From Ricordea florida (lineage: Eukaryota; Cnidaria; Anthozoa; Corallimorpharia; Ricordeidae): a DNA stretch of 64,000 bases. The stretch spans positions 20,161,504-20,225,503 of the forward strand of contig OX453283.1 in assembly GCA_949710005.1 (NCBI GenBank), given 5' to 3'. The position numbers and the translations under genes are program-made. Positions within the stretch are counted from its first letter, which is position 1; every line of letters begins with the position of its first letter. The notes under the pieces were generated by a model that worked only from the letters and a program-made list of their open reading frames with translations, was not told where the DNA came from and searched no databases. Below, one piece after another: positions 5,158 to 25,408 of the stretch.

Positions 5158-5479
5158 ATATATATGTAGCATTGCAGTTATGTCTTAGCTGGCGAACGTG
5201 TCTAACACCTTTCGACCAATGGTATGTGTTGTTTTATCTTCCAATGAAAATGCGTTGCGATTGTGTCCTCTCAGATTATTTTACGAGGGGACGGGTCAGC
5301 GAGACGTTGTTTTGCCACGTCAAACCTCAAAACCTGTCGAGCATTATTGTCAGTATTTTGTCTGACTACCGAGGGTACTTTGTCGGATCATTCTGCGTGT
5401 CCTGAGCAACATTTCTAGCTGCATTCGAAGCCTTATATTATTGGTAAGAAGCTTTGTGAAGCATAATATATTGTGTAAT

Positions 5480-5717
5480 TACCTCCGCCAAGGAGGTTAT
5501 GTTTTCACGCCTGTCTGTTTGTTTGTTTGTTTGTTTGTCTGTCTGTTAATTGTTTTACGCAAAAACTAATCAACGGATTTGCACCAAATTTGGTGGAAAG
5601 GTCGCAAATATACCCAGGATCAATCGATTAAAATTTGGGATTTATCCAGATTAAACTCCGGATCTCAGATCCAGATGAGTGTAGTATCAGGTGTACATAT
5701 GTGGCGGGGCGGAGGTA
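5480..5717. mobile_element. Short interspersed element with TACCTCCGCC/GGCGGAGGTA ends
   Basis: Starts TACCTCCGCC (5480-5489) and has the exact complement at 5708-5717. Inside is a TTTG/TCTG microsatellite (5513-5546) and a stretch beginning TTTTACGCAAAAACTAATCA. This end sequence and layout are familiar from short non-autonomous elements scattered in many invertebrate genomes. The 76-codon open frame inside is not considered a gene. Confidence 0.6.
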
Positions 5718-6995
5718 TGCGCTCTACCGAGTGCCCTTCTAGTTTTTTTTTGTGGTTATGGTTTGAAAATGTCTCAATTTCAGGAAGCCATTTCCACGTA
5801 TTATATTAAAGAAAGGGGCGTTCATGTTCATCAGCAATTCTTAGTATAATTGTTGATCGTGTTGCCTTCAAGGTTGCTTTCAAGCAGCACGAACTAAGCT
5901 TGCACGGCGCTAATTTGTATAGTCCACACTGTTGTGTTTTTTACTTTGCAATTTGGATCTTTCGTGCTATTATAAAACTGCGTAGTTTTGCACGTGCTTT
6001 GCATTTGGTCGGGCATAAAGAAACACTGTCACACCAACAGCTGAGCCAATTTTCAATAAGCTTTCCACCTTGTATTGCCAAATGCGTCCAAATATACAGC
6101 TTAGTCGGATAAAACAATTCTATAGAGCATATAACAAAAGCAGTAGTTTCAAAATAAAGGGCAGGATTACAAAGATTGAAATTGGGTTACAGTTAAAGAA
6201 ATTAGAGTGATTTTCAGGATGTCAAGAAATCAAGGTCACCGTTCTTGTAACAGTTTGAGCTTTCAAGCCTTTATTTAGTCTTATATTTCTTTGTTTCTAT
6301 CATAATTGGCATTGATTTCTACCGATTCAGAGAAAAGCAAACTCCTGGGCACAATCATGACCTCACAATACATTAATTTCCCTTAATGTTCCATACCACA
6401 TACCCAACACAGTCTAAAAAATAAATTATCCAGTGTGTGTGTAGTGATCCTGAAAGTCTCTCAAGTCCTTATATTTTATTCTGGCATTAAAAACTATAGC
6501 CATTGCTTGCTATAATATGATATCTGTAATTCATCTGGATAATTTTTTTCTACATACATGTATTTATGGCTTTGAAGTAAAAGAGGGGCTCTGTCACGGA
6601 TTTTAACAGATTTTTGAGCAGCCAAAATTTATGGTGTAGTCAAAACCTAAAAATAATGGGCCATTTTTATTATCAATTGCTATATTATTTATAAGAGCAC
6701 TGAAACTGTTAACAAGCATCTTTGCCTGTGGATGGCTTGGATGGATGAGGTCATGTCTCCCTTTAGATGTTCAAAGATGTTCTTCATGGGTTAAGTTGCC
6801 TACTACTAATTTCATAATGGTTTAGACCATAAATCTGTGAAATCCCCGTACCGCATGGTATAGCCCCTTAAACATTCCAACCAGCATGGCAGAATGAGTC
6901 TGGTGAAGTAGACCAAAACATTTCAGCGCTGCATAAGGATTTGCCTACATTATTGGTGTCTTTTATCGCTTGGTAAATATGATGGACAATGCATT
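5718..6995. other. AT-rich spacer, nothing identified
   Basis: Short open frames only (the longest, 70 codons at 5900-6112, has no recognisable feature). No clear repeat. Confidence 0.4.
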
Positions 6996-8702: not shown

Positions 8703-11700
8703 TTACGTCTGCACAAATGATACGCCAACGGCATCAGGTGGAGGGGAAGACGACTGCTCCTCTTGCATTTTCGGGGTTTGGCGCAAGGCAGCACATTGGT
8801 GGCAAGCTTGAGTCACACGGTCAATGGCCTTGTCTATGTCCAGGGCATAGAGGTAGCGCTTGGTTACAGCTTTGAGTTGATGGCTGGATGGGTGACCGAG
8901 TTGGATGTGTAGTGCAGTTAAGAGTCCCTCTAGTACTTGTCGGGGGACGATAATGCATTCGCGGGTTGGTGCGAGAGGCTCGTCACGCTTGACAACAAGC
9001 AAGCCATCCTTCGCAATGGTTGCTATGTTGAGGTACCTCTTAACATCCCTCAAGTTTGTTAGCTTTTTCGAGGGACGTGTTCCCTGTTGTAGGTGCGCTC
9101 GAGTGCGGCGTAAATCGGGGCATTCAGCCTGTGTGGTCAACCAGGCGGTGCGGCTGGTGAATGGGAGGTGCTTGGTGCCACTGAGTATGTCTTGGGTAGA
9201 TGTGTGTCTGACAACAGATTCTTGAGTAAGCTTTGTGAACCCGCAAACTTGGCAAGCTTCATCTTCACAAGGGGCAGCATTACGGCTGGAGAAATCTGAA
9301 GGCAGTATCGCGGAGCTGGATACGTGTCTGACGGAGGCCTGATATCGGCTCACAGCAGACAGGAAGGTAGACACACGAGGGCTTGCTGAGAACTCTCCTC
9401 GGCAAAGTTTTTCATATGCCTGTACGCATGGTTTGCTATCCTTCAGTATGCAGGCCTTATGATGAGACTGTATTAGGTAGGGGCTAAAGTGCTTGGTGGC
9501 AATGGTGATAGCTAAAGCTTCCACCTCACATGGCAGCCACGCTGTCTGAGAGCCGCGTAGTTTGGCACTGAAAAATCCTGCCAGGCGTAGCTTGCCATCA
9601 CGGGTGACATATAGGGTGGCACCTATTCCAGGTTTTCGGACAGCTCCATCTGTCACAATCCACAGTTGATCGCCAGGTCTGGGGAGCGAGATGGTTTGGG
9701 TAGTGGACAGGGCGGCCTGGGCGTTGTGGAATGATGTTCTGAGGGCATCTGTCCACTGGATAATTTCGTTAGATTCGCGGCCAGCGACAGTGTCGTCGAG
9801 TTTGGCCAGGAGTGTAGAGCATCCAGGAATGACACGGGAGAGCACCTTAAAAGCTCCAATGAAGGATCGCATTTGGGCTACGGTGTCGGGTGCAGGGCAG
9901 CAAGCAAGGGCTGCAATGCGGTGTGGGCTGGCACTTAAGGTGCCACAGTTCCAAATCCAGCCTAGTATTGTTGTGGATTGTGGGTTGATGATGGTCTTTG
10001 ATGCGGAAAGGCGGAGATCACATTTGTGGAGGGCTCGTAAGACTTTCGTCCAGTTCTGCAGGAGTTCTTCCGGAGAGTTACCTCCGCAATACAGATCGTC
10101 TGCGATTTTAGCAACAATGCCTTCCTCCAACAGGTCACCGAGCACTCGGCTCATGAGCTCCTCAAGGGCCGTCTCCGAGCCTGGCATGCCCATGGCAGAC
10201 CGCGCATACACACACACACCCTGGAATGGTGTAGCAACGCCACAATATTTCATAGAGTCGCGTGAGAGTGGAATCTGGTAGAATGCGCTGGTCAGGTCTG
10301 TGGCGACGATGTGTTTCCACTGGGCAATAAGTCGTAGGGTGGAGTCTACGTCTGGCATGAGAGAGGGCTGAGGCTTGCTGTATTGGCCAACGTCAGCAAA
10401 GGCGGTGACTAGGCGGTAACCACCGTTGGCTTTCTTGATGAGGAAAGACGGGTTGAGGTACTCTACGGCAATGTTGATTTCTTCGGGACGGCGAAAGACA
10501 CCCAATGCTTCGAGTTCATCAAATTTATGTTGCAGCTCCAGTAGCTGGTTACGGGCATACTGCGGCAGCCGGCCTTTGCGTTGAGGGGGTTCCACTGGAC
10601 CCATGTTTACTCTGGCTTCGAAAGGACCTACTGAGCCATTGTAACCCTTGATTTTTGGATCAAATACATGGTCGTACTCATCAAGGAGTGAAGAGAACTT
10701 GGCTTTGACATCACGGGGGAGCAAGTTTGCTGGATCAAGACACACGTTTGCGGAGTGTTTGGTGCTGGCCTGAAGTGGAGGTGGTCTGGGTCGCAGCGTG
10801 GTTTGCAGCTGCGAGTTGTCGTTGCTGGCTTCTGGTGCATACACAGCGCGTACCTGACAAAAGTGCTCATTTCTCTTGAGAAAATGTGGCTGAGGAGAGA
10901 GGTTGGGGATGCGTATCTTTCCCGCGACGCTTGAGATGATGGCTGGGGTTGGCCATAGTTGGGAAGCTGTTAGCTGCCTTATGCTGGGCGCATCGGTCCG
11001 CGGTTCCAATGCATAGACAGAGTCGCGAGGGGCATCACTTGGTAAATTGACTTCAAGGAATTCTCCGGGCCAGATGGTGGTGGACGAGGAAGGGGAACGT
11101 AGCACCATGGCACAACGTGCCGCAGAGCTGCCTGTTGCAGGTTGGTGTGACCCATTGTTGTGGATGGACCCGTCTCCAAGGATTACTTGGCGCTTGGCTG
11201 GGCGTACCGCTATATCATTAGTTTCCATGAAGGGGGTCCCAGCCAGTACATCTACATCAAGGTTTTCGACGACGAGGCCTTCGAAGGTAAATATGCGGTC
11301 TTCACGGGTGAATGATAAGCGTGTTTCACCAACCACATGCAGGGGAGATGAGCCGTCTGCTTGGTGGACAGATTGAGAACTGGGCGTCACGCGGCAGCCA
11401 AGACGTTGGACAACGGTGTGGCGAATGATGTTTCCTGTGGTGCCACTGTCAATGGTTATGCGCACTGGGTGGTGTGAGTGGAACATATCAAGGTACGGCG
11501 CCTGGCGAGTCTGTATGCGGAAGACATGAGTGCTAGGACTAGGACCAGGGTCATCAGTGTCGCTGTCTGGCTCGTCTGCATAGGGTCTGGTGTCAGGATC
11601 AGCAGGGTCGTTGAGGATGTCAGTGATTTGTCTGGCCTTAGCGATGTACCTACGATCTTGTTCCGGAAGGAAACTGCATTCGCTAAGGAAATGGCCATTC

Positions 11701-17840: not shown

Positions 17841-18610
17841 CACGACTGCAACAGTACATATATATGCTATCCTAAGTTGTAACATTCATTCCCTGAAGAA
17901 GTCTCAGTTTGAGACAAAACGCGTCGGAATTAAAACTGATAAGTTACAACTACAAAGTTCTCCTTTGTGCTACTCACTAGTCCTCGTTAAAAATTTTTAA
18001 AAAAGAAATTTCCATGTACCTGGTAACAGTGATATAAAAACTAGACTTACAGAAAGCGTACATGGAAATTTCCATGTACCTGGGTCGATGAAAATTTTTT
18101 AACTTTAGATTTTCTGAAGTAGGAAATTTGGAAAAGAATATATCTTCATACTTTCCAACTAGAGAGCAAACATTCGTAGCCTTAACCCACAAATTGTCCA
18201 CTGACCTACCACATCAGGCCAAACCAGCTGTTACTTTGACTAAATTTCACCAGTAGGCCTTGCATCTGACTTGGTTTATTTATAAAAGTTTCTTGCATAT
18301 TCTGACTACTTGTCCACCAACAGTAATGATACACACATAGCAGCGTTTATTTTTCCACTTGTGTGTAGCAAATATCTCTATAATAACACAAACGTTTCTT
18401 ATTTAGAACTGCACATGTACCTTGGGAATAGAAAAAGATCCTTGAAAAAATATCAAAAATAGAAAAAGACAAAAACACTGTTTCGCCTAGAAATTGAGGA
18501 AAATTTCAGATGCTTTACAAAAGGGGTCAAACAGGATACATGGAAATTTCCATGTACCTGATTTAAAGAAAGGGTTAATGGAAATTTCCATGTACCAGTA
18601 ACAAAAATTA
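17841..18610. repeat. Dispersed repeat, copy 2, rearranged and without the MITE
   Basis: 17841-17999 is the reverse complement of the 4650-4900/5158-5220 block, including one hammerhead-like motif (17891-17930). One to two minisatellite units follow (18007-18085), then a direct copy of unit A (18098-18530), then two partial minisatellite units (18536-18600). Relative to copy 1 the B block is inverted and on the other side of A. The empty site of the 249-bp MITE is at about 17856-17866. Confidence 0.75.
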
Positions 18611-18719: not shown

Positions 18720-21439
18720 TCAGTCGTCCTCTGTTCCCTCTTCATCATTGTCTGATTGTGCCTTGTGGGCAAGGGTTGTCACTTTCTTCTTGAAAATACT
18801 GACAGGCTGTGGTTTGTCATAAATACTCAGTAGATTCACTTTTAATTCAAGAGATGGCTTCAAGCAGGACGAAACTGATAAATATACAAAACAAAAAATA
18901 AGCACATTCAAATCAAAGAAATTACCACATATGTAAAACAATACAAGATGTACATATATACCTTGAATCTGCAAGTTTCCTAACTCTAACAAAATTCCTC
19001 TTGGTGGCACAAAAAGCCTTATCAGGTGCCTCATAAATTCCTCCTCCTTTTTTGCAACAAACCAATTTGTTGCACTTCTCAAAGGGGTACCAACAAAAAT
19101 AATGGATGTCTTCTCCACCACATCTGTCAATCCAGTGCCAGCTGTTGACAAAAAGGTAATACAGTATTATGCATTTAAAAGGTAGTCCTGTTGTTATATC
19201 TGGAGCTAATAGCTGCTTCTTTAAGGCTGGTTTTCACAAGTGACGGAGTCAGAGTTGTAATCAGACGTGCAGAGCAATAAGATGTAAGGGAAATCTGAGT
19301 CTGAAGGAGAATACCAATTCCGTTTAACTCCATCTCATTACGACCTGGTGAACTGTGCTCTGAGGGCCCAAGAACTAGCATTGCCATTGGTTGGTTATTT
19401 TGCTTCTGCCTTTGACTCCAACAATCTAGTTTTCACTGGATCATAAGCAACGGATAAACAACGGAGTCATAGGCAGAGTCGGACGAAATTGGAAAAGTTC
19501 TGATTCTTCTGACCCTGATTCAGTCGAGCTTATGAGTCCACTTGCAACTATGATTTTCGATTTTCACTAGATCATAAGTGCTCTTACGACTCCAGTTACG
19601 ACTTGACCTCTGACTCCATCGCTAGTTTAAACCAGCCATTAGCGGTAACTTAAATATTTATTTAACTGTTAATTTTAAAATTAAAAAGAAGTTATCCATC
19701 AACAGTATAACAACATCCGGTTGACATTAAGAGACTAATCCAATGTGAAATGTACCTTTGGCAGAAATTCCACTCCAGGCCACAAACATTACATGACCTT
19801 TTCCTCCAGGGGTACATTCTTCGAGGGATTGCAAGCTGGTCTTTGTCCTAACTACTATGGTGTAGTTAGACATGCCAGTTCTGGTATTGAGGCCACAAAT
19901 TTGCCTCACAATGGCGTTCACTTTGTCTTCACTACATGCCTTAAGGGTTGAAACACATTTTTAGTAATCTATTTCCCATTAATACCGCCAGCTTTCCATC
20001 CTCTAATTATCACATAGATTAATGTTTGGAGGCTAAATAAGCTTCAGGAGATAGACTAGTGTTTAACCCTTTAAGCCCTGAGGGGTCTCCTTGTGATGAG
20101 TAAAATCGTCTGGCGTTAGCAAGAGTAAAATCTGTTAAGATGCTATTGGGGCTTAAAGGGTTAACTGTCCTATCATTTGTTAAAAATCTGCTTAACAGCG
20201 AGGTTTATGCAATGCACTGTGGGAAGAAATTAATAAACATGCAGGAAGATTCCAAAGCTGATTATGTCTTCTAACCTAATTCCTCTCAAAAAAAAAAAGA
20301 ATTTTAATTCATATGTACATTGCAAACCTGTTTGCAAGTCACTTTTAAAAAACTTATTTAATAATTCATGCACAAATTATAAAAATTTGAATGCTAAATA
20401 TTAGTGTAGGAACAGATAAATATAGAGCTATTACGTTTCTCAAGCTATTTACAAAATTCACAAGTTGTGTTGCATCAGGACCTACAACACTTGGCTGCAC
20501 CTCATGTTTTAAAGCTTGATACAACAATCCTGCTCATTGGGTAAACATAACTAATTAAATCAAAAGAAAAATTCTGATGAGCTTACTTCCTGTGCCTGTA
20601 TCACTGTAAGATCAGCACCAGAGAATGGAACATCTTTAAATAATTCTGCAGAAATTGTATGCTCACTGGAAAACAGTGCACCATACCACAAACCATTTTT
20701 CCATGTAAGCTGCGTGGATTGACCTTTAAGGAGTACATAGTTCAAGTTAATATGTATATAGTTATAATAAGTTACCAACTCACAAACAAAAGGTCTCCAC
20801 AAGATATTGGCCACTCTATAATGTATAAGCTGGTTAAAAACAACCTTGTTACAAGCTGTGTATCTCAACTTTTTAAAGCCAAGGATCACGCTCATCACAT
20901 ACTCAGAGACTGTGACTTCTAAATACCTCATTTTAATACCACACGGAAAACACGCACAAAGGTTAACCAAGGTCCACATGTCTAGCCAAAACTAGGTAGC
21001 AATGAACTTAGGATGTCACCAAGCCTCAATGCATTTAATACAAGAAGTAAACTTCTCAGATCCTATTGACAACAGCAGCAAACTGTGTAAATTCTAAACA
21101 TTGTTATTACTATTATTTAATTCACAAATTGTAAATAATTATCAATTATTTTTAACATTTTAACATTGTAAATTTACTTAGAAGTTAGTTCTTCATAAGT
21201 ACAGATAGGTGTTCTAACAGCCAATTGTAACTAATTAATTTATTACATTAGAAAACAATCCTAAGAAAATACGCGCGCTGATTGGTTAGAATTTGTGTTT
21301 CTATAACTCGATAGAAACACAGAACTAGCGCAAGCTGTTGACGTAATGACGCGGCAAAGAGAATTTACATTTTGGTCATCAACGTTAACAATTTGTTTTC
21401 CTTTTTGTCGCGGTGTTTTCTAAAAGAAATAGAAACATG

Positions 21440-21478
<39 letters not shown>

Positions 21479-24400
21479 AGTTTGGGAGAACTCGAAAAAG
21501 CTGTGGAAACACTCGCCTGCAGTTCGTGTTCCGACAGCATTTCTCGTTCTTCCAAACTTCCACTCGTGTTTCTATTAAACAATTAGATTATGAGCTCAAG
21601 ATTTCTATCGCGTGATAGTTGACAAGGGTGCAGCCTGAGTCAACTATCACGCAGAGAAATCGAGAGCGAATAATCTAATTGTTTTAGTATAAATCTACTA
21701 GTTGTTCAAAACTTTGTCTTTTCTGGAACAGCCTCGACCAGTAAACTGTCTAAATCTTCTTCACGGACACTTCGAAAATGTGAAGAAGCGGCCGCCATCA
21801 CGCTACTCACTATCTATCACAGAATAGATAGTGGGTAGCGTAGCCAATCAGAGCACAGCATTTGTGATAGAATGCTAGTAGATTTATACTAAAACTCGAT
21901 AGAAACACCGTACATGTTTTCTATTTCTTAACTAATTATTACAGAATGGGGGCAGAAAAAAGGTACTTGAAAGGATGCCCAGAAATGACAGCTGTTCATC
22001 ACACACTTTCGTTTAATATATATGAGTAAGTGGTTCCTTACAACAATTCACCATCTCTTATTGTTCCCAGACACTTTACTTTTCATAAAAACTTGCTCAA
22101 CCTGCAGACACTTATCACTTGCATGAGATATGGAACTAGTTGGCCTTAAACCAAGGCAAATTTATTTCCTCATAGCTTGCTCAGGAAAGCAATCACAAGC
22201 ACAATCGGTATTGGCTGGGGTTTGACTCCGAATTGAGAACAGATTGGTTTTTGTTCCAGATGTGCCTAACAGTGACATTAATATTCAATATGTTTCTTTG
22301 ACAGTGTATGTATTTAGGAAAATTCCTGCTTTTCTAAGCTAAAATACCTTTTCTTGTGTTGTCATGTCACGATGAAACCGGTCCATCTTGTTGTGATTGA
22401 AGGCTATTTGAAGGACCTCTCTTTTTGGCATTTCTGTAAAAAAATTTTTCTTCATCAAATAACAGAGCTTATAAACAGCTTATAATTGACTAGAAAGCTA
22501 AAAGAGGGACAATATGACTACTGTACATGTACCAGTAATTGTTATAGGTCTAAGTAGAGTCCAATAAAAAATATCTGGTCTATTGATCTTGGCCAACATA
22601 CTAACACAATTAACCTTAAGGCAAACTCACCTGTAAGCAAAATGACTTCTGTATATTTATATTTCCAATCGTCCGGATTTTCCTGCAGTAAATGCTGCAT
22701 TGCAGCTCTCCGGTGGTTTCCACCAATCACTTCTAACTCATACGAATCTAAAAGTTCTTCCCGGAACTCTTCGTGTTTTGATACACCTTTGACAATCACC
22801 AAGAGAGGCTTCAATCCAAAGAGCACCTCATTGTCTTTGAATTCTGCAATGAGTGATTTGACAAACAGGTCATCAATATCACGGAGCTTGTATTCTTTTC
22901 GTGGCTGTTTTAACGTGGACACAAGGACATTCCGCGGACCTAAGTAGAAATATAAATTAAACTGTATGAGCAAACCAACTTGCCCAAGTCTATGGATATA
23001 TTCATGGTTTACATCTTCCTTATCATTGGATACTTGCTTAATCATCTTTGCCATAAAATAGTGAAGGTTATGGACAAAACAGTGACACCCACACTATGGA
23101 CTACCCCTAAAAAATACTAATCCAGATGAGTGCTATGTTAAGAAGCTGCGATTATATACTTACACTGCACAAAGGTTGCTTTCGTCCTGTACGGCCTTCA
23201 GCCACCATTTCAAATTATTATACTGAATAAGCAACCCTGAACACAAAAAGCGTAGATTCAAGTCATACGAAGTGATGTCAGCAGAACATAAATCATCTGG
23301 GAGCGAGATTGAGCTTGTGATAAATATTACGCCAGGTGCCTGGTGTACCTGTCATTTTCAATGCCTTTTGATAGTCCACAGAATATTTGATTTAACTTGA
23401 GTCTGCGTCATTTTGTGCTCAGCGGTTGCTCTAGAAGGAATAATTTATTTAAGATGGCAGCCGAAGGCTTGGCGGAACGAAAATAAGAAGTGAGACTCCC
23501 GAAAACCTCGCGAAGGTAATTTTTGAAGAACTCGTGATGGTTTTTCCTATCAGTAGCTTTCGTGCATTGTAAGTAAATATACAATCGCAGCTTCCTAACA
23601 TAATACTTATCTGAAATAGTATTTTTAGGGGTAGTCCATTCGGGTCGTCCATGGACTGGGAGTCAGTGTTTCGTCCATCACCAATGTGGAAAAGCTGACA
23701 AAAAACTTACACAATGATATGGCATAACTTTGTTGCGAATGATCTAAAGTTATGCCATCACCGCCATCAATGGATGAGAACTGGCTGGCTGGTGTAGCAG
23801 ACGTACTGTTGGGTGCAGTTAACACACCCGCGGTGCTAACTTCAGGGGACTGTTGGCTTGGTGTGGTACTAGTAGAGCTTGTCTCTGTGCGACGACGTTT
23901 GCTAACATTTGTTGGCAGTGCCACGTCTGGGGATTCTCGTATTGGTTTAGTACTGCCGGTAGAGCTGGTCTCACGGCTACGACGTTTTGTTTGATTTTCA
24001 TGAAACTCATCGGTAGAAGTATTAGGTCGTTTTCCGCAACTTGAATGAGAGAACTCAACATTCAATACTTTGACCACTTGCTCTCCAAATTTCGTAATGC
24101 TTCCAATCTCCTTATACAGCACCCTGTTAAGGTCATCTGTCGGATTCAAGTATGTGAGGTCCAGGAGAAGACTTTTTCCGAAACTGTATTTCACCTGAAA
24201 ACAATCAACAGCCTTAACTAAACCTCACACCGAATATTGTTATCCACGTGCATTGGAAGTAGGTTGGCACAGCTCCAATACTCTTCAGGGAAGCCACAGT
24301 CCGACCACAATATTGTCCTATCATATCAAAGCGCTCAGCAACGTTTATTTCTCCTCCGAATTTCGGAGCGATTCTGTAAGCTTTGAAAAAAACATTTAAA

Positions 24401-24852
24401 GTAAAAATGTCTCAGTCGCCAATGCAGAATACCAGTGGCCAGCATTGTGTTCTTGTTGCGGCATCATTTGAAGAAAGATCGATACAGATAACAATGCATG
24501 ATTATAACAAATGTATACGTGTAAGTGGCCTGGCCATGGTATTCTGAAGTTTAGCACCATAAATAAGGCTAATAAGCTTACTAAAATCCTGGCCAGCATT
24601 TTCAAATTTAAAGAAATAAACAGCCTATACCTTGAGCTTGCGGGAATCTTGAGCGGTTGGTTTGAGGCTAACAACGTGTCCAGGCTCGGTGCCATCCTGA
24701 GAGAGAATTGGAGAACTACTCGCTTGATGCAACGTGCGCACCTCTCCATTCTCTTCCTTAGAGAAGTACCACTTCCTCCCCAAATGATGCCGTTTTGCCG
24801 AGCGTCTTTCCTCCATAAAGTCTAAACGTATGATACTGCTAAGCAACAACAA
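18720..24852 (-). CDS. ParB-like domain protein with methyltransferase-like C-terminus, 10 exons
   Basis: Predicted exons (minus order): 24631-24852, 23711-24194, 22631-22939, 22348-22433, 22080-22101, 20619-20723, 20435-20529, 19756-19939, 18962-19141, 18720-18874. All have GT/AG borders and the phases close to 1842 nt (613 aa) without a stop. Residues 75-235 are a Ser/Thr-rich linker with basic clusters (KRRRTE). Residues about 236-380 are ParB-like: QPRKEY, VKSLIAEFKDN, GGNHRRAA (308-315), then NHNKMDRFHRDMTTQEKVEQVF, matching the ParB order. Residues about 500-562 end with NWFVAKKEEEFMRHLIRL and FVPPRGILLEL, like the conserved C-terminal end of beta-class amino-methyltransferases, but the GSG and DPPY-type motifs are not evident. 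Weak points: the 22-nt exon and a GTGCTG donor at 20618. Start could be Met13 (24816). Confidence 0.7.
19225..19637. mobile_element. 413-bp MITE, GGCTGGTTTTCAC family
   Basis: GGCTGGTTTTCACAAGTGAC at 19225 is mirrored imperfectly over about 40 bp by a block ending TTTAAACCAGCC at 19637. It lies in the intron between exons 8 and 9 of the ParB-like gene. A shorter relative is at 40606-40781. No coding frame. Confidence 0.6.
20063..20164. mobile_element. 102-bp MITE with TTAACCCTTTAAGCCC ends
   Basis: TTAACCCTTTAAGCCC at 20063 and GGGCTTAAAGGGTTAA ending at 20164 are exact complements; the TTAA at each edge would be a TTAA target duplication (piggyBac-type). It lies in the intron between exons 7 and 8 of the ParB-like gene. 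Confidence 0.8.
21295..21894. mobile_element. Cluster of three foldback/inverted-repeat structures
   Basis: (a) A 26-bp sequence at 21295-21320 recurs as its exact reverse complement at 21446-21471; each half is itself a GTGTTTCTAT/ATAGAAACAC hairpin. (b) 21580-21623 and 21639-21681 form a 43-bp foldback with a 15-nt loop. (c) TTTTAGTATAAATCTACTAG at 21682-21701 is mirrored at 21875-21894, enclosing a further hairpin at about 21801-21840. Structure (c) starts at the base after (b). All lie in the intron between the 22-nt exon and exon 6 of the ParB-like gene. Confidence 0.75.
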
Positions 24853-25087: not shown

Positions 25088-25408
25088 ATGGATGATTCCT
25101 CGATTGCAGAAGACCCTTTTTCGTCGTCGATTATTTCAAGTGTTGGTGAAGAGCCCTTGACATCCATATCAATGAATGACCAATTTTTTAACGAAGAGAC
25201 AATAAGCAGAGAATCAGTCGATGATGAAGTATTCGAATTTGAGCCGACATCAACAAGTACTCCTTATAAAAGGAAAAGGAAAGTCTCTGAACGCGAATCA
25301 CCAGATTCTTCGATGGGCGAAGAACCACTCTGGCTCTCGCACAGTGCTTCAATAGAGCTACACGAGGAAACTTCCAAGCTTGGAGATAGTGAAGACGATG
25401 ACCACTAA
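25088..25408 (+). CDS. Acidic Ser/Glu-rich small protein or first exon, unknown
   Basis: ATG at 25088 in a purine context (CGATGG), 106 codons to TAA. It is rich in Ser, Glu and Asp, contains a basic KRKRK patch (about residues 62-66) that could be a nuclear signal, and ends in GDSEDDDH. The twice-used GEEPL motif (about 20-24 and 78-82) is an internal echo. I do not recognise a family. It is divergent from the ParB-like gene. Confidence 0.4.
   Translation: MDDSSIAEDPFSSSIISSVGEEPLTSISMNDQFFNEETISRESVDDEVFEFEPTSTSTPYKRKRKVSERESPDSSMGEEPLWLSHSASIELHEETSKLGDSEDDDH

Follow-up and report, generated by a model that had tools for sequence, protein, structure and literature searches.

A probable broken duplicate in Ricordea florida of an animal gene with a ParB-like region and a methyltransferase-derived C-terminus

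Introduction

Fusions of a ParB domain with an adenine methylase or with a PF01555 methyltransferase are described from bacteria and phages (PMC5512222, PMC12704722). Bacillus cereus Bce_0392 and the phage and prophage proteins that join a ParB-CTPase fold to N6_N4_Mtase have the same pairing, a ParB-type domain with a methyltransferase, as the subject of this paper, a gene of the corallimorpharian Ricordea florida seen in a 64,000-nucleotide stretch of its genome, C12:20161504-20225503. We call this whole stretch the window and mark its positions with a w; other loci are named by chromosome and Mb in the same genome, which was searched over 537.8 Mb in 48 contigs. The gene differs from the bacterial and phage fusions in that it lies in a eukaryotic genome, has 10 introns and a region of about 195 residues between its two parts, carries degraded catalytic motifs and has no PF02195 match. 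We consider it probable that the window holds a broken duplicate, and that an intact and selected ParB-like/methyltransferase-derived gene stands at C3:17.29.

Two animal proteins offer a comparison. The bdelloid rotifer N4CMT is likewise encoded in an animal genome and has a PF01555 methyltransferase that came from bacteria or phages; it is said to have no eukaryotic homologs (PMC8885841). N4CMT keeps SPPY and carries a chromodomain, whereas the coral family has a ParB-like domain and reads QAQE, EIPK or DVPK; the 774-residue protein predicted at C3:17.29 has no SPPY, and no chromodomain match was found for it in Pfam at E up to 10. Sulfiredoxin is named in PMC12704722 as the ParB-fold protein most often met in eukaryotes. 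If the ParB assignment holds, sulfiredoxin and the coral ParB-like part belong to one fold superfamily, but sulfiredoxin is an enzyme that repairs peroxiredoxins. It is not known to carry a methyltransferase part. No animal ParB-methyltransferase fusion was found among the titles and abstract openings of the top-ranked papers in the literature searched, most subscription papers being outside the reach of that search.

An intact copy at C3:17.29 and a broken one in the window

At C3:17289924-17297018 (C3 below), 11 exons join in phase into 2,325 nt, or 774 codons and a stop. The predicted protein has an N-terminal KWYF motif, a Ser/Thr-rich basic linker, a ParB/sulfiredoxin-like region at about residues 230-361, a helical-looking middle region at residues 362-557 and a methyltransferase-derived C-terminus; it matches no Pfam family above its cut-off. 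The window aligns with this copy in pieces of 92-97% identity over w18005-27696, with insertions on both sides, and keeps 8 of the 11 exons at 95.5-99.4% identity (Table 1). The 1.2 kb that lies between exons 4 and 8 in C3, with three further exons, is absent from the window: exons 5-7 (residues 362-557) have no counterpart in w17501-25500, and a high-copy repeat stands in their place, where the C3 stretch 9875-11091 (numbered along the sequence of the C3 copy) is without counterpart. A 219-nt piece of this repeat matches at 96-100% in 40 scored candidates of 968 first-look candidates, besides 7 short matches.

The same deletion and repeat, the latter at 95% identity, are found in a copy at C12:10.49. 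Six window exons can be compared there (96.1-98.9% identity), exons 1 and 8 falling outside the stretch compared, and gaps totalling 4 nt break the frame of its exon 3. In three paralogs, those at C12:13.17, C5:11.48 and C8:28.83, counterparts of exons 5 and 6 come after the ParB-like exons, and the C8 and C12 paralogs have one of exon 7 as well. Since these paralogs share both exons 5-7 and the ParB-like exons with C3, the C3 state is ancestral, the three exons having been lost from the window copy and not inserted in C3.

The initial annotation had proposed, from the window alone, ten GT/AG exons closing in phase to about 613 codons. The motifs on which it drew are present on the minus strand where it placed them, exons 3 and 4 encoding QPRKEY..SLIAEF..GGNHRRAA and DRFHRDMTTQEK and exon 10 encoding NWFVAKKEEEFMRHLIRLFVPPRGILLEL, and they are beyond chance, as the eight exons recur at C3 inside the 11-exon frame. 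The chain itself did not hold: comparison with C3 supports eight window exons, and these, when joined, run into a stop at codon 396 of 573 because exon 8 requires phase 1 whereas exon 4 leaves off in phase 0, leaving exons 9-11 downstream of the premature stop. Two exons were dropped because their phases do not fit, one at w24381 (AYRIAPKFGG), with exon 1 joining exon 2 directly, and one at w23237 (LLIQYNNLKWW), with exon 2 joining exon 3 directly. The closing of phases is not evidence for a gene, since the intron between exons 4 and 8 of the window alone offers 47 open single bridging exons of at least 30 nt. The gene cannot be read from the window alone, and a gene finder can be misled by such a copy: its exons are open, three from the middle of the gene are missing, and splice sites that occur by chance can close the frame. 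Very probably the locus is a segmental duplicate of an animal gene, broken by the lack of exons 5-7.

Constraint on the C3 side

Two observations speak against a dead window copy. Its eight remaining exons are free of stops and frameshifts, which means that the copy has not been dead for long, and over these exons the plain pairwise comparison with C3 gives a synonymous divergence (dS) of 0.052 and a nonsynonymous divergence (dN) of 0.015, a ratio of 0.29 that alone would suggest constraint. We divided the changes by lineage, using the C12:10.49 copy as the third sequence. This three-way split covered 6 of the 11 exons (2, 3, 4, 9, 10 and 11), with one three-state site set aside; changes that arose on the branch common to the window and C12:10.49 copies, before these two separated, are counted with those assigned to C3. 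Synonymous and nonsynonymous changes number 12 and 4 for C3, 5 and 10 for the window and 2 and 20 for C12:10.49; the one-sided P against the neutral share of nonsynonymous sites is 1e-5, 0.22 and 0.97, respectively. Only the C3 side thus shows constraint: the C3 counts depart from neutral and the others do not, the window changes being not different from neutral. The five introns measured differ by 2.3-4.8% between window and C3; the intron between exons 3 and 4 was left out because it could not be aligned (0.415 differences, with an insertion in C3).

A working gene of reduced length, in which exons 1-4 run on into a short new tail (about 395 residues in all) or exon 8 is reached through bridging exons, would agree with the eight open exons, the overall ratio and the 47 possible bridges. 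We regard it as very unlikely in view of the neutral-looking window changes, the position of exons 9-11 beyond the stop and the broken exon 3 of the sister copy that has the same deletion. The window copy is most likely a pseudogene, with at most a truncated ParB-like product. The earlier picture of a working multi-exon gene at this locus is not supported, three exons being absent and the copy evolving like neutral DNA; the suggested domestication fits the constrained C3 copy. That an intron-bearing eukaryotic gene is involved was borne out for the family.

The methyltransferase half

The origin of the C-terminus is seen through the C8:28.83 paralog, which carries EKPVDLYERLIAIYDCPHSWILDLCSGTGN and GSAAAACAEKGHNCIIAEKDEQKL on separate exons. 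Its joined exons match Pfam PF01555 with 35.4 bits, above the cut-off of 26.7 (E=1.4e-8), and PHROG DNA methyltransferase families at E=1.3e-8, and phage DNA methylases come up in tblastn. When three coral paralog types were aligned together and compared with four phage methylases, hhalign gave 96.6%, and the three-type profile found DpnA in the PDB at E=0.004. Other matches are below threshold: a composite of the C5/C12 type scores 19.7 bits against PF01555 (cut-off 26.7), and no single exon passes when PF01555 is searched exon by exon in the genome. Taken by itself, the methyltransferase part of C3 gives no family match below E=0.1, which counts against our interpretation of that copy. Two scans among viral contigs, prokaryote genomes, phages and plasmids found no relatives of the methyltransferase part, and further searches with it found generic DNA methylases in phages and plasmids. 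From the C8 match and the alignments, the C-terminus almost certainly descends from a beta-class (PF01555) amino-methyltransferase of bacterial or viral DNA methylase stock, as the initial annotation had suspected.

The counterpart of the C8 pair in the C3/window type is KKEEEFMRHLIRLFVPPRGILLELGNLQIQ/VSSCLKPSLELKVNLLSIYD, with the same exon break and no glycine loop. In the alignment, the motif of exon 10 (Table 1) has KP..LI....P...LDLCSGTG as its C8 counterpart, and motif I, for binding S-adenosylmethionine (SAM), reads ELGNLQIQVSS in window/C3, DLCSGTGN/GSA in C8 and DLCSSTGN/GSA in C5/C12. The position of DPPY is occupied by QAQE in C3, EIPK in C8 and DVPK in C12, and the catalytic [DNS]PP[YFW] is absent from the three types read. 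A caution is that motif IV was placed by eye against phage methylases, the automatic alignment not having placed it. Because the DPPY counterpart reads QAQE, DVPK or EIPK, we infer that methyl transfer was lost in all three paralog types; SAM binding was presumably lost in the window/C3 type. Both motifs had been reported as not apparent from the window alone, and comparison with the paralogs bears this out.

A second, N6_N4_Mtase-like kind of exon, DPFVGR.T..IVAK..GLD.IGIDIDPE, occurs in several copies at C2:41731093-41731221 and C10:26.77-26.84 Mb, below the Pfam cut-off. The exons of this type at C2:41.73 and C10:26.84 were set aside as another kind of methyltransferase-like exon.

The ParB-like half

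Residues 230-361 run in the order strand KVLVSTL, QPRKEY, helix, strand PLLVIV, strand YELEVIGG, NHRRAA helix, strand YTEVILL, helix and HNRMDRFHHDMTTQEK, a beta-alpha-beta-beta-alpha-beta-alpha series in which the elements were assigned by eye and whose order matches ParB Boxes I-III. Box II, the P-motif GxxR after the third strand (PMC12704722), is GNHR in all five rows of a first alignment, A1, two rows of which are the near-identical C3 and window copies; it is absent (GAHN) in a distant relative at C4:17.90. Aligned by hhalign to 63 phage ParB domains, the A1 profile reached a probability of 2.2% and a score of 19.2. A second, five-paralog profile, made by adding the C4:17.90 relative to A1 and dropping the window row, reached 16.7% and 25.9 against the same 63 domains, and 0 of 200 column shuffles scored as well.

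Other results weigh against a ParB assignment. The A1 score was reached by 3 of those 200 shuffles, and the better value followed the change of profile. PF02195 finds no match above cut-off in the window open reading frame (ORF) that contains exon 3, in the 774-residue protein or in any of the five A1 rows, and gives 0 candidates when searched exon by exon through the whole genome; no Pfam or NCBIfam ParB model is matched above cut-off, and the PDB holds no sequence match. The best Pfam match of the region is Glyoxalase_2 at E=0.005, below cut-off, with ParB-related models only at E=0.05 (DndB) and 0.18 (ddrB-ParB). Hidden Markov model searches are weak in both directions. When the family profile was compared with 2,099 viral ORFs, ParB did not come first, and 2 of the top 25 belonged to the 99 that are ParB-like by motif. 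A single-sequence AlphaFold2 model of exon 3 was uninformative, with a predicted local distance difference test value (pLDDT) of 45.7. For the ParB-like part, two scans of its own among viral contigs, prokaryote genomes, phages and plasmids found no relatives at E <= 1e-3, and in a further search six phage records matched 37% of the query at E 0.3-3.

The likeness could accordingly be due to chance, residues 230-361 being some other alpha/beta domain joined to a methyltransferase relic, as the absence of any library match above cut-off, the two low hhalign probabilities, the viral ORF ranking and Glyoxalase_2 would allow. We hold this to be rather unlikely, since the ParB elements stand in the right order with GxxR kept, no shuffle equalled the score of the five-paralog profile, and known ParB-methylase fusions raise the prior. 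A ParB/sulfiredoxin fold for residues 230-361 is the likely assignment on motif order and profile scores. Of the ParB claim made from the window, the motif order stands and the domain itself is probable, not proven. If the ParB part is accepted, the two parts share one 774-codon frame at C3, a frame that is broken in the window copy.

The distant C4 relative (C4:17901037-17901432, minus strand) is 24-28% identical to the family's ParB-like exons. It has GGAHN in place of GGNHR and is followed, beyond a stop codon, by HNLTGELRHSITFLEEV.

The gene family and its repeats

Searches of the genome returned 19 matches with the ParB-like exons and 16 with the methyltransferase-like exons (E up to 10). 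When matches with E < 0.01 are clustered within 80 kb and those above are dropped, the family occupies at least 24 loci, of which several are fragmentary or contain stops; C10:1.46 (E 0.017), left out of this count, is a real fragment. Diverged relatives elsewhere in the genome have 24-41% identity. The C8:28.83 locus has a ParB exon altered at the 5' side, with another copy close by in inverted orientation. A candidate relative at C12:2.31 Mb was rejected, having only one weak piece.

Four copies carry only the 3' half of the gene, exons 8-11 or 9-11, at 99.1-99.97% identity to C3 and with differing start points. All four are accompanied by the downstream dispersed repeat and the 60-bp palindromic minisatellite (TACATGGAAATTTCCATGTA), and the two whose 3' ends were examined have an identical end point. 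Among 30 matches to a 253-nt probe of the downstream repeat, 25 are at least 190 nt long, and 60-bp arrays occur at other copies. We read the 3'-half copies as gene pieces probably carried along by the downstream repeat.

The same facts could be taken to mean that the family is the cargo or product of a mobile element and that its copies spread by transposition: there are at least 24 loci, the four near-identical 3'-half copies have ragged 5' starts and common repeats with the same end at both examined 3' ends, repeats adjoin several copies, and a high-copy repeat lies within the gene. Against transposition stand the 11 exons and the constraint of the C3 copy. In w18005-27696, the unit shared with C3, the only ORFs of at least 150 residues are two of the gene itself, and none of that length encodes a transposase or reverse transcriptase. 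Inspection by eye of the two copies for which both ends were available showed no target-site duplication, and the 3'-half copies look like gene pieces captured by the downstream repeat. We consider a mobile-element origin unlikely, and read the family as duplicates of a host gene.

Several repeats were seen beside other copies. Next to the C5:26.92 copy lies a 75-bp array that shares its GGAAATTTCC core with the 60-bp minisatellite, and at C3:7368563-7368803 a 131-bp tandem unit abuts a truncated gene piece (C3:7.37 Mb). A motif similar to that unit, CTGAAGAAGTC..ACGCGT, lies beside the window copy at about w17890-17945. The idea that w17890-17945 is a hammerhead ribozyme was dropped: Rfam matches nothing in this part of the window and, at E up to 0.5, gives no hammerhead at the C3:7.37 piece. 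At the C12:13.17 paralog, the nearest last-exon match is about 72 kb from exon 10, and the stretch that follows exon 10 (C12:13178200-13185500) begins with large ORFs that appear to resemble Helitron and LINE (long interspersed nuclear element) proteins.

Proposed history and function

A tentative history can be proposed, which we rate as possible, somewhat short of probable. A ParB-methylase from a phage, a bacterium or a large virus would have entered the animal line leading to corals, and the recruited gene would have gained introns and the middle region and multiplied to the family of at least 24 loci. Methyltransferase function would have decayed stepwise, the catalytic motif first and then the SAM loop, while selection kept at least one non-catalytic, nucleotide-gated member. 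The ParB-like part may bind nucleotide through GNHR (Box II, GxxR), and the C3 protein might then be a nucleotide-gated nucleic-acid or chromatin-binding factor; it is read as non-catalytic because its DPPY-type motif is degraded and its SAM loop is lost. This function, suggested by the motifs, is likewise no firmer than a tentative proposal.

If true, these readings would add to sulfiredoxin another ParB-fold protein that is selected in an animal, and would give PF01555 a second lineage in animals after the bdelloid N4CMT. ParB-methylases are known from bacteria, phages and conflict systems, and a constrained, intron-rich, catalytically degraded animal version would show another route to chromatin or defence factors. 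With decay graded from paralog to paralog, the family offers a way of asking which binding function was retained by selection.

Features of the window locus

Table 1. Features of the ParB-like/methyltransferase-derived locus in window positions, with identities to the C3 copy.
Feature	Position	Strand	Description
Exon 1	24631..24816	-	Start codon at 24816, KWYFSKEE N-terminus; 98.9% identity to C3:17.29 exon 1; open
Exon 2	23711..24194	-	Ser/Thr-rich linker with basic KRRR stretches; 97.5% identity to C3 with gap columns removed, gaps totalling 18 nt
Exon 3	22631..22939	-	Probable ParB-like domain core (QPRKEY..GGNHRRAA), collinear with ParB boxes; 99.0% identity to C3
Exon 4	22348..22433	-	ParB-like Box III region (HNKMDRFHRDMTTQEK); 97.7% identity to C3 exon 4
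High-copy repeat, 688 bp	21243..21930	.	Occupies the place of C3 exons 5-7
Exon 8	20587..20723	-	Start of methyltransferase-like half, degraded DPPY-type motif near end; 97.1% identity to C3
Exon 9	19756..19939	-	Methyltransferase-like, middle part; 96.2% identity to C3 exon 9
Exon 10	18962..19141	-	Methyltransferase-like, KK..LIRLF.PP.G.LLELG; 99.4% identity to C3 exon 10
Exon 11	18720..18874	-	C-terminus and stop; 95.5% identity to C3 exon 11
Downstream dispersed repeat	18005..18600	.	Remnants of 60-bp minisatellite on palindrome TACATGGAAATTTCCATGTA, seen by eye
Divergent partner ORF	25088..25405	+	106 codons here, cut short; 350 codons in the C3 copy

The divergent plus-strand ORF stands head to head with the ParB-like gene, the two having their upstream region in common; its 350-codon C3 version is at positions 5201-6253 (minus strand) of the C3 sequence L036. 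Further copies are found at C12:19.19 Mb, identical over 106 residues, and at C14:9.69 Mb, at 76% identity. Its C-terminus has weak zf-U1 and zf-DBF matches, below cut-offs.

Elsewhere in the window there are retroelement ORFs at w8703-11852 (minus), w29548-30327 (plus), w43298-46969 (minus) and w53839-54720 (plus). Four of the eight window ORFs given to Pfam match RVT_1, one of them with RNase H domains also and one with zf-RVT.

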